Shown in pieces: positions 3,120 to 8,340 of a DNA stretch of 14,062 nucleotides. Under the pieces are notes generated by a model that was not told the origin of the DNA, made no database searches, and was given only the letters and a program-made list of their open reading frames with translations. Numbering within the stretch: position 1 is the first letter of the stretch; each line of letters begins with the position of its first letter. The stretch is taken from positions 1 to 14,062 of the forward strand of contig CALMWD010000517.1 in NCBI GenBank assembly GCA_937873105.1, written 5' to 3'. Made by a program: the position numbers and the translations under genes. The stretch comes from an uncultured Rhodanobacteraceae bacterium (GTDB lineage Bacteria > Pseudomonadota > Gammaproteobacteria > Xanthomonadales > Ahniellaceae).

Positions 3120-3794
3120 ATGATCCACGTCGAAAACATCACCCGCACCTACGACATGCACGGCGCCGAAGTGCGCGCGCTCGACGGCGTGTCGCTGGAC
3201 ATCGCCCAGGGCGAATTCGTCGCCATCACCGGGCCGTCGGGTTCCGGCAAGTCGACCCTGCTGAACGTGCTCGGCTGCCTCGACAAGCCCGACGCCGGGT
3301 CCTACGTGCTCGACGGCCAGGAAGTCTCGGGGCTCGACGACGAGGCGATCAGCACGGTGCGCAACCGCAAGATCGGCTTCATCTTCCAGAGCTTCCACCT
3401 GCTGCCGCGCCTGACCGTGCTGGAGAACGTGCTGCTGCCGCTGCGCTTCACGCGCGAGCCCAAGCCGGACGTGACCGCGCGTGCGAAGGAACTGCTGGCC
3501 CGGGTCGGCCTGGCCGACCGCATGGACCATCGCCCGACCCAGCTTTCGGGCGGACAGATGCAGCGCGCCGCGATCGCGCGTTCGCTGATCCTGAGCCCGG
3601 CCCTGCTGCTCGCCGACGAGCCGACCGGCAACCTCGATTCGAAGAGCGCCGCCGACGTGCTGCGGCTGCTCGACGAACTGCACGACCAGGGCCAGACCAT
3701 CGTGCTCGTCACCCACGACAACGAGATCGCCGCACACGCGCCGCGCCACGTGCGCCTGCGCGACGGCAAGGTGGAATCCGATGCGAAGCGATAG
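3120..3794 (+). CDS. ABC transporter ATP-binding protein, MacB/LolD-type
   Basis: A 224-residue nucleotide-binding subunit. Motifs in order: Walker A GPSGSGKST (38-46), Q-loop Gln90 in IGFIFQSFHLLPRLTVLENV, ABC signature LSGGQMQR (142-149), Walker B with catalytic Glu in LLLADEPTGNLDSKS (162-176) and the switch His199 in LVTHD. The IFQSFHLLPRLTVLENVLLP stretch and the short length are typical of the type VII (MacB, LolD, FtsE) group, which drive mechanotransmission in tripartite export systems. The start at 3120 follows AGGGAAG at 3109-3115; an in-frame ATG at 3039 would add residues outside the family fold. The gene heads a five-gene unit and its 3' end overlaps the first in-frame ATG of adaptor A by 14 bases. 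The substrate cannot be told. Confidence 0.94.
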   Translation: MIHVENITRTYDMHGAEVRALDGVSLDIAQGEFVAITGPSGSGKSTLLNVLGCLDKPDAGSYVLDGQEVSGLDDEAISTVRNRKIGFIFQSFHLLPRLTVLENVLLPLRFTREPKPDVTARAKELLARVGLADRMDHRPTQLSGGQMQRAAIARSLILSPALLLADEPTGNLDSKSAADVLRLLDELHDQGQTIVLVTHDNEIAAHAPRHVRLRDGKVESDAKR

Positions 3795-4857
3795 CCAACA
3801 TTCGAATCGCGGGGCGGAGCCCGCTCCCACGAAAGCAGGGATTTTCACGGGTTTTCTGGGATCTCGTGGGAGCGGGCTCCGCCCCGCGATGCTCCTGCTG
3901 GCCTTGAGCAGCGGACTCGTCACGGCCGCCGCACCCCGTGTCATCCTGAGCGGCGAAGTGTTGGCGCAGAATGCCCAGCCCGTGTATTGCCCGCCGTCGA
4001 ACAGCTCGCCGGTGGTGCTGCGCTATTACGTGCCCGAGGGCGCGGCAGTGAAGAAGGGCGATGTGGTCGTGCGCATCGACGCCGGCCAGAGCGCGGCGAT
4101 GATCCAGACCCTGGGCGCCCAGATCGAGCAGACCGAGGCGCGTGTGGCCCAGGAGATCGCGACCCTGGCGGTCGCGGCCATCGATGCCGAACGCGCCTTC
4201 GTCGACGCCGACGCGCTGCATCGCAAGGCCCAGGTCGATGCCGCGATCCCGAAGCAGCATCTGTCCGCGCTCGACTACGACCGCTACCAGGGCGAACGGG
4301 TCCGCACCGAGCGCGACCTCGAACTGCGCCGCAAGGAACGCGACGCCGCCGAGGCCGCGGTCGCGCGCCGGCGCGAGGACGCGCGCCTGGAAATCGACAA
4401 GCTGCGCCAGGACCTGCTCTACCACCAGTCGCAGGTGGCGCTGGCGGAAGTGAAGGCGGACGTCGACGGCATCGTTGTGCACGGCTTCAATCCGTGGCGC
4501 GGCGACCGCTTCGACGAGGGTTCCTCGGCCTGGCCGGGCATGAAGATCGGCGACATCGTCGACCGCGGCCCGGTGACGGTGCAGGCCTATGCGCTGGAGG
4601 CGGACCGTTCCGCGATCGCCGTCGGCCAGAAGGTGCGCCTGCGTTTCGACGCGCGCCCCGACCTCAAGCTCGAGGCCACGATCGGCGCCATTTCCGGCGC
4701 CCCGGCGACCAAGATGGAACTCGGTGCCGGGCGCTATTTCACCGTCACCATCCCGCTCGACGGCTCGGCCGACCTCGGCCTGCTGCCCTCGTCCAGCGTG
4801 CGCGTCGAACCGGTGGCGGCGACGCCCGCGGTCGCCGCGAACGGAGGCCAGCCATGA
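3781..4857 (+). CDS. Periplasmic adaptor A (HlyD/MacA-like membrane fusion protein)
   Basis: First of three tandem adaptors. From the ATG at 3781 it has 358 residues, from the alternative ATG at 3889 it has 322. After a hydrophobic signal segment (MLLLALSSGLVTAAA, residues 37-51) come the first lipoyl half-motif (YYVPEGAAVKKGDVVVRIDA), a long charged alpha-helical hairpin (about 111-222), the second lipoyl half (DGIVVHGFNPWRGDRFDEG) and a beta-barrel-like end. It lacks the C-terminal membrane-proximal domain seen in adaptor C. The 3781 start has AAGGTGGAA upstream and overlaps the ATPase gene, but then residues 9-36 are encoded by a REP-like palindrome. The 3889 start gives a length like adaptor B, but has no ribosome site and its AT lies in the palindrome arm. 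The gene ends in an ATGA overlap with adaptor B. Such proteins bridge an inner-membrane pump to a TolC-type channel. Confidence 0.85.
   Translation: MRSDSQHSNRGAEPAPTKAGIFTGFLGSRGSGLRPAMLLLALSSGLVTAAAPRVILSGEVLAQNAQPVYCPPSNSSPVVLRYYVPEGAAVKKGDVVVRIDAGQSAAMIQTLGAQIEQTEARVAQEIATLAVAAIDAERAFVDADALHRKAQVDAAIPKQHLSALDYDRYQGERVRTERDLELRRKERDAAEAAVARRREDARLEIDKLRQDLLYHQSQVALAEVKADVDGIVVHGFNPWRGDRFDEGSSAWPGMKIGDIVDRGPVTVQAYALEADRSAIAVGQKVRLRFDARPDLKLEATIGAISGAPATKMELGAGRYFTVTIPLDGSADLGLLPSSSVRVEPVAATPAVAANGGQP
3806..3890. repeat. Perfect 27-bp inverted repeat (REP-like pair) at the adaptor A start
   Basis: Arms at 3806-3832 and 3864-3890 are exact reverse complements, separated by a 31-base loop. 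Each arm carries the sequence GTGGGAGCGGGCTCCGCCCC or its complement, and each can fold alone (GGAGC-GG-GCTCC). This is the look of REP/BIME elements common in gammaproteobacterial intergenic DNA. I see no second copy in the window. It follows the ATPase stop codon (3792-3794) by 11 bases, and its right arm ends with the first two bases of the 3889 ATG. It contains no stop codon in the adaptor A frame. In mRNA it would form a very stable hairpin between the first two cistrons. Confidence 0.85.
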
Positions 4858-7078: not shown

Positions 7079-8340
7079 GTTCGGCACTGGATGGCATCGG
7101 CAAGCGCTTCGGCACGCACTGGCGCGAAGCCGTCGAGGAACTGTGGCGGCGGCGCCTGCGCACCCTGCTGACCCTGCTCGGCCTGATCTTCGGCGTCGGC
7201 TCCATCGTCGCGATGCAGGGCGTCGGCGAAGGCTCGCGCCAGGAAGCGCTGAAGCTGGTCGAAGGCCTCGGCCTGCGCAACCTGATCGCCAAGGCGGAAT
7301 CGCCGCCGGACCAGGAAGCCCTGCGCGAGATGCGCGCGCGCAGCCTCGGTCTCACCCGCGCCGACGCCGAAGCGGCGATGGAAGTGGTGCCGGGCGCCAC
7401 CGGCTTCGCCGCGGAGAAGGCGATCAAGACCTATTCGGTGCTAAGCGAGTACGCCGGCTCGGATGCGACCGCGAGCGGCGTCACCCCGGACTATTTCGCG
7501 CTGTCCTCGCTGGAAGTCGCCCGGGGCCGCGCCTTCGATGCGGCCGACGACGACCGCCTCGCCGCGGTCGCCGTGCTCGGTCACCAGGCCGCGAAGCGCC
7601 TGTTCCCGGACCGCGAGGCGGTCGGCGAGCTGGTCAAGGTCAACCACGCCTGGTTCGAGGTGATCGGCGTGCTGACCGACCGCGACCTCAGCAAGGACCA
7701 GTTCGAAGGCGTGCAGCTCGGTCTCGAAAGCAACCGCGTGTTCGTGCCGCTGGCCTCGGCCCTGGCGCGCCTGCGCTTCCAGCCGATGGAGGACGAGATC
7801 GACCGCTTCCTGGTCCAGCTCGACGATCCCGCCCACATCGTCGACGGCTCGAAGGTGCTCTCGGCCATGCTCGACCAGCGTCACGCCGGCCAGAAGGATT
7901 ACGCGCTGATCGTGCCGGCCCAGCTCTACCAGCAGCACCAGGCGACGCAGCGCATCTTCCGCATCGTCATGGCCGCGATCGCGGCGGTCTCGCTGCTGGT
8001 CGGCGGCATCGGCATCATGAACATCATGCTCGCGAACGTGCTGGAGCGGAAACGCGAAATCGGCCTGCTGCGTGCGCTTGGCGCGCGTCGCCGCGACGTG
8101 ATCGAACAATTCATGCGCGAGGCCGCGCTGATCTGCGGCGTCGGCGCCGTGCTCGGCCTGGTCTTCGGCGCCGTGCTCGCCTACCTGATCGCCTGGGGCG
8201 CGGGCTGGGCCGTGGGCTGGGCGCCGATCCCGGTGCTGGCCGCGACCTTGATCTGCGCCCTCACCGGCCTCGCCTTCGGCGTCTATCCGGCACGCCAGGC
8301 CGCCGACCTCGATCCGATCGCCGCACTCAGGACCGACTGA
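7075..8340 (+). CDS. ABC transporter permease, MacB/FtsX family
   Basis: A 421-residue inner-membrane subunit with the MacB topology. A cytosolic amphipathic start (HWREAVEELWRRRLRTLLTL) precedes TM1 (about 28-48). A periplasmic MacB core domain (about 50-290) follows, then three TM helices near 297-319, 345-372 and 383-402. FtsX-family signatures are clear: GVGSIVAMQGVGEGSRQEAL after TM1, LLVGGIGIMNIMLANVLERK with REIGLLRALGARRRDVIEQF, and the terminal YPARQAADLDPIAALR. It lacks a fused nucleotide-binding domain, so the ATPase encoded first in the operon is its likely partner. GGAGG at 7065-7069 precedes the ATG, which overlaps the adaptor C stop. Such permeases drive periplasmic export by mechanotransmission; the cargo (antibiotic, peptide, lipid or toxin) is unknown. 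No TolC-like gene is in the window. Confidence 0.94.
   Translation: MSSALDGIGKRFGTHWREAVEELWRRRLRTLLTLLGLIFGVGSIVAMQGVGEGSRQEALKLVEGLGLRNLIAKAESPPDQEALREMRARSLGLTRADAEAAMEVVPGATGFAAEKAIKTYSVLSEYAGSDATASGVTPDYFALSSLEVARGRAFDAADDDRLAAVAVLGHQAAKRLFPDREAVGELVKVNHAWFEVIGVLTDRDLSKDQFEGVQLGLESNRVFVPLASALARLRFQPMEDEIDRFLVQLDDPAHIVDGSKVLSAMLDQRHAGQKDYALIVPAQLYQQHQATQRIFRIVMAAIAAVSLLVGGIGIMNIMLANVLERKREIGLLRALGARRRDVIEQFMREAALICGVGAVLGLVFGAVLAYLIAWGAGWAVGWAPIPVLAATLICALTGLAFGVYPARQAADLDPIAALRTD

Follow-up and report, generated by a model that had tools for sequence, protein, structure and literature searches.

Why does a single ATP-binding cassette (ABC) transporter unit encode three different periplasmic adaptors? 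This question is raised by positions 3120 to 8340 of contig CALMWD010000517.1 (assembly GCA_937873105.1), from an uncultured Rhodanobacteraceae bacterium. The stretch of DNA analysed, referred to below as the window, comprises positions 1 to 14,062 of the forward strand of this contig, and the assembly that holds it is rated 67% complete. In the window, a stand-alone ATPase, three adaptors (A, B and C) and a MacB-type permease are encoded one after another (Table 1), and a three-adaptor MacB-like ABC unit of this kind is unusual. Judged from comparisons of the encoded sequences, the five proteins probably form one ABC transporter that uses the MacB mechanism, the periplasmic tube of which would be a hetero-oligomer of three dedicated adaptors. 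The grounds for this reading are the conservation of the unit, the natural fusion of A with B and the confinement of a MacA-like membrane-proximal domain to C.

Organization and distribution of the five-gene unit

A reading made earlier from the sequence alone had described the order ATPase, A, B, C and permease as coupled by a 14-base overlap followed by three ATGA overlaps, and all of these coordinates hold: the ATPase and A overlap by 14 bases, and the A/B, B/C and C/permease junctions are each an ATGA overlap. Fixed co-production of the subunits by way of these overlaps is plausible. Walker A (GPSGSGKS), LSGGQ and Walker B motifs of the ATPase are visible by eye in its translation, and the signal peptides of A and B look ordinary by the same measure. 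In Pfam, A and B were matched by HlyD_3 above its cut-off, and C by HlyD_D23 alone, under its cut-off. The window's genome contains 16 HlyD_D23 matches on 14 contigs, and only the window's contig carries more than one. No Rfam match was found in the window.

The arrangement is not limited to this strain. With B as the query, matches at an E value of 1e-8 or better were obtained in 31 of 61 genomes (the window's own and relatives), those in G011, G017 and G027 being weak. Thirty loci of the unit were read, from the window, 27 genomes with B matches and two named assemblies, and the gene order was the same in all of these as far as the contigs extend (L042 stops before C). The loci of two weak-match genomes (L062 and L063; G017 not included) were also read and set aside as not being this unit. 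Profile searches of genomes were made within the window's own phylum and scored the best few candidates per genome, so that the counts that follow are lower bounds. The named nearest relatives of the window belong to Lysobacterales and Rhodanobacteraceae, and its own order is taken to be Lysobacterales. Among 299 genomes of this order, 80 matched the B profile, and these cover 31 of 85 genera. Exactly three matches were found in 73 of these 80 positive genomes, two in six and five in one, with the adjacency of the three verified in the read loci only. A further 18 loci from 17 genomes of this list showed the same gene order; these were picked by hand, with a leaning towards long open frames, and are no fair sample. 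Two of them are incomplete, L113 being ended by a contig edge and L111 retaining only a short ATPase fragment. The genome of the latter (G724:C16) has two copies of the unit; L111 is the divergent second one, and its A and B are fused.

In wider draws, the C profile at an E value of 1e-30 was matched in 4 of 274 genomes of the class and 3 of 200 of the phylum, the window's own genome being counted in both. One of these matches, in G503, belongs to a full unit, and in the other four a lone adaptor is accompanied by an ATPase and a MacB-like permease, one of these loci being cut by a contig edge. With the G503 locus included, 49 loci of the unit were read in 48 genomes, a few of them incomplete, and the order is kept throughout. 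Because the unit is conserved across families, a chance arrangement is excluded.

Table 1. Features of the five-gene unit and its adaptors in the window
Feature	Position	Strand	Basis or remark
ABC ATPase, 224 residues, stand-alone, LolD/MacB-type nucleotide-binding domain	3120..3794	+	ABC_tran E 4e-35
Periplasmic adaptor A, with a signal peptide and no visible lipobox, without membrane-proximal domain	3781..4857	+	HlyD_3 E 4.2e-9
Inverted doublet like repetitive extragenic palindromic (REP) elements, 27-bp stem, inside the A frame, in its 5' signal-peptide region	3807..3889	.	arms 3794-3832 / 3864-3902
A coiled-coil hairpin, 124 residues	4081..4452	+	29/29 aligned A
Adaptor B, 318 residues, periplasmic, without membrane-proximal domain	4854..5810	+	HlyD_3 E 6.6e-14
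B coiled-coil hairpin, 124 residues	5058..5429	+	29/29 aligned B; 111/111 fused homologues
Adaptor C, 423 residues, predicted lipoprotein (LAA-C16), membrane-proximal domain	5807..7078	+	
C coiled-coil hairpin, 124 residues	6059..6430	+	29/29 aligned C; 116/120 nearest homologues
MacA-like membrane-proximal domain of C, not present in A and B, approximate ends	6752..6991	+	profile 313-395 matches MacA 274-356
MacB-type permease, 421 residues, MacB_PCD and FtsX, without fused ATPase domain	7075..8340	+	MacB_PCD E 3.2e-33, FtsX E 6.2e-23

What do natural fusions say about A and B?

In 21 of the 49 loci, A and B form a single polypeptide that lacks the signal peptide of B. Since two adaptors are fused in so many loci, a tube of mixed parts is suggested, and one mixed tube is favoured over three separate ones. 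The hetero-oligomeric tube that the sequence-only reading had proposed is therefore likely, with co-assembly of the adaptors presumed. Database matches to the fused A-B protein include Massilia, Duganella and Undibacterium, as proteins alone. A draw of 369 genomes of the class gave an A-B match in the window's own genome only; this draw says little about these three genera, because database matches exist there. A database protein of 732 residues (P0238) is a tandem adaptor of distant kinship; judged by eye, its second module seems to end in a membrane-proximal domain, and the protein may represent a separate two-adaptor fusion lineage.

How do the three adaptors differ?

The profile of C matches MacA through the C-terminal membrane-proximal domain, whereas the A and B proteins stop at the beta-barrel. 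The lipobox cysteine of C (Cys16) is invariant (29/29), and a lipid anchor is predicted in C only. Two observations of the sequence-only reading, that only C has the membrane-proximal part and that membrane anchoring differs among the adaptors, are thus borne out. The C-terminal domain of MacA matters for stimulation of MacB (PMC4338810; this and the other sources cited are drawn on in excerpt). Of the suggested division of labour, pump docking by C is supported, C being the best candidate for the adaptor that docks on the permease. The claim that the adaptors differ in length holds for the whole proteins (318 to 358 residues in A and B, 423 in C), C being longer chiefly because of its extra membrane-proximal domain; the hairpins have 124 residues each.

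A tree of 96 rows places A, B and C each on one side of a branch, with support of 100/99, 99/95 and 100/99, respectively. These separate clades indicate that the three types predate the parting of the families of the order, or that they spread jointly. The same tree sets A and B against C and single adaptors (97/93), under a midpoint root that leaves the direction open.

Hairpin length was measured on alignments as the number of residues between the two lipoyl half-motifs. Among the 120 nearest homologues of C, the four that depart from 124 have hairpins of 116, 126 and 152 residues, with one partial. The adaptors measured from outside the unit have other lengths: the 17 measurable of 30 RND-type (resistance-nodulation-division) control adaptors fetched gave 79 (ten), 65 (five), 56 (one) and 218 (one), and in the four single adaptors encoded next to MacB-like permeases the hairpin had 93, 179, 195 and 195 residues, so that 15 of the 21 measured have a hairpin of 79 or 65. 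The tips are in register, with a proline at hairpin position 57 in 29/29 A and 24/29 B. The equal reach of A, B and C fits one tube, as weak evidence.

A proposed tube and its alternatives

How could three adaptors serve one permease? In the proposed mechanism, its lipid would keep C at the inner membrane, where C would dock on the presumably dimeric permease and pass on the ATP-driven movement of the latter. The soluble A and B, without a docking domain, would take the remaining ring positions side by side, giving a ring that fits the two-fold symmetry of the permease, in the simplest case with A-B-C present twice. A periplasmic or membrane-derived substrate would travel outward through this tube, towards a TolC-type channel encoded elsewhere or a different partner in the outer membrane. 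A more specific form of this proposal is advanced tentatively, as possible rather than probable: the unit may represent a class of its own among envelope-spanning tubes, built as a pseudo-hexamer (A-B-C)2 in which the three different adaptors break six-fold symmetry to fit the two-fold MacB-type permease, with docking only via the two C subunits and a tip suited to a non-RLS-TolC partner.

Several results weigh against the single mixed tube, or lend it less than they might seem to. The residue that follows the lipid-bearing cysteine of C (position +2) is a glycine in 17 proteins, a serine in six, an alanine in three, a threonine in two and a glutamate in one; with Asp there in 0/29, retention of C at the inner membrane is not assured. 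Mean-field covariation between A and B over 140 paired rows (effective number 77, 645 positions) gave no hairpin signal even within A or B, and the top A/B pairs appear to stem from stretches common to both trimmed rows near the fusion point. The distances of A, B and C are correlated (r 0.93-0.97), as follows from shared descent. Equal hairpin length is weak evidence because ten RND-type controls of different loci share 79 residues, and in fused A proteins (n=111) the majority length is 123 (84 proteins, as against 124 in 23, 122 in three and one partial). On the channel side, the RLS motif binds TolC in MacA and AcrA, with an RLT version in HlyD (PMC3391258). In the adaptors of the unit it is rare, occurring in 6/29 A, 3/29 B and 3/29 C, where shuffling gives 3.0, 3.6 and 2.1. 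No outer-membrane channel gene was found in the unit in the loci read, and no neighbouring gene is common to more than four loci within the stretches fetched. The suggestion that channel docking falls to A and B finds no clear support in these counts, and the hairpins of A, B and C are equally long. In A, four of the six matches lie at one place near the hairpin tip, where the window's own A is without the leucine; this is a faint hint that A may take part in TolC docking in some members.

The absence of a channel gene and of a conserved neighbour also bears on function. Whatever the make-up of the ring, the unit might not export to the outside; a TolC-free adaptor tube might instead carry a lipid, a lipoprotein or another envelope component to the outer membrane or from place to place in the periplasm. 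Besides these absences, the rarity of RLS and the ATPase fit such a device: the best NCBIfam matches of the ATPase are MacB (248 bits), LolD (242 bits) and DarD, none above its cut-off among the 25 listed, which places it nearly as close to LolD as to MacB. It is nonetheless doubtful, as the permease profile lies far nearer to solved MacB (E 2e-76) than to LolF (4e-9) or LolC (4.5e-7), TolC-type proteins are encoded elsewhere in 16/16 genomes searched, and MacAB itself uses a TolC encoded elsewhere. The LolCDE models all remained under their curated cut-offs (lolCE 43 bits against 362, LolD 242 against 308).

As for the make-up of the ring, the tube might consist of A and B only, as an alternating A3B3 trimer of dimers like that thought to be formed by TriA and TriB, with C as a separate docking or anchoring factor outside the ring. 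Natural fusions do join A with B and leave C out, the tree groups A with B and C apart, and TriABC has been read as 3:(3+3):3 (PMC13328181). Against this arrangement, which is judged unlikely, the hairpin of C is also 124 residues long and hence of equal reach, and the symmetry mismatch would return if a ring of three-fold symmetry sat on a permease of two-fold symmetry. That three homo-oligomeric adaptors take turns on a shared permease, according to the outer-membrane partner or the conditions, is very improbable: each adaptor is a complete module of lipoyl, barrel and hairpin parts, tip sequences differ among the three and a hairpin length can be common to adaptors of different loci, but A and B have no membrane-proximal domain, their fusion makes homo-rings of A or B awkward and the genes are tightly coupled.

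The ATPase/A junction

The REP-like doublet is traversed by the first ~36 codons of A. It folds with -73.9 kcal/mol for 110 bases, and exact and near copies of it were found at other sites in the window's genome. Inverted repeats after the overlapping start of A are present in the window and in two congeners (G001 and G002; L035 and L032); the three differ in sequence, all fold as strong hairpins, and the A frame is open throughout. These junctions are most simply read as insertions of REP-like elements into the n-region of the signal peptide of A that left the frame unbroken. A start allowing the 14-base overlap is present in 6 of 30 loci, including L037, in which A goes from the overlapping start directly into the signal peptide without a REP-like insert. 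The idea that the overlap is a by-product of the doublet was dropped, because a start with an equal overlap is available in relatives, insert-free L037 among them. From these comparisons, the 14-base overlap is probably real, and translation of A would start at 3781 or possibly at 3889.

Other genes of the window

Just upstream of the unit, a T2SSE ATPase with MshEN, of type II secretion or pilus type, is encoded at 1007-2971 on the plus strand; it is not among the neighbours shared by at least four loci. Positions 316-1016 on the minus strand encode a PIN-domain protein and, immediately upstream of it, a protein with a MazE-type antitoxin domain, which together resemble a toxin-antitoxin pair. 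Genes for MAPEG, M24 peptidase, GFA and family-2 glycosyltransferase proteins lie at 9226-13984 on the minus strand and have no evident tie to the unit.

Why does a three-adaptor unit matter?

In homomeric adaptor rings, the role of each of the six positions is concealed, as is the way in which a two-fold pump drives a six-fold tube. If the positions are separate genes in this unit, two of them naturally linked, docking, coupling and channel opening would become separately testable by mutation. The unit would also add to Lysobacterales a transporter family undescribed in the literature searched, and the same family would occur in some Oxalobacteraceae, judged by fused A-B proteins only.

How does the unit compare with known systems?

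The sequence-only reading knew of no characterised system with three adaptors, and no ABC unit of this kind turned up in the open-access literature searched, from which subscription papers are mostly missing. The mycobacterial lipid transporter Mce1 has tube proteins unrelated to the adaptors of the unit and belongs to a different kind of envelope. What it shares with the present proposal is the notion of an ABC transporter topped by a heterohexameric tube (PMC10517005). The LitOPAI transporter of Legionella likewise has a MacB-like permease and a separate ATPase, but contains one adaptor and has its own outer-membrane channel in its cluster (PMC11559062). DSY0927 of Desulfitobacterium hafniense, set beside the unit by description only, is a natural tandem fusion of two adaptor modules, and no third adaptor is mentioned in the excerpts of its source (PMC4446572). 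Two adaptors on one RND pump and engineered tandem AcrA have already been published (PMC13328181, PMC8277102, PMC4446572, PMC4338810).

TriABC-OpmH of Pseudomonas aeruginosa resembles the unit in having more than one kind of adaptor in one pump; both adaptors of TriABC are required (PMC8277102, PMC13328181, PMC4338810). Unlike the unit, which combines an ABC transporter with three adaptors and a natural A-B fusion, it is built on an RND transporter with two adaptors. A 695-residue chain in PDB entry 6VEJ, which is labelled there as two membrane fusion proteins of RND type, may, from its name and length only, be a joined TriA-TriB.

MacAB-TolC shares with the unit its permease family and, in C, the lipoyl, hairpin, barrel and membrane-proximal domains. 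It differs in that the ATPase of the unit is an open reading frame (3120-3794) separate from the permease (7075-8340), in having one adaptor where the unit has three, in membrane attachment, which is a predicted lipid anchor in C and a transmembrane helix in MacA (PMC5985334), and perhaps in the RLS tip motif, which is rare in the adaptors of the unit. Two defining features of MacAB, a fused ATPase and a single adaptor with a membrane helix, are thus missed by the unit, which nonetheless probably works like MacAB.

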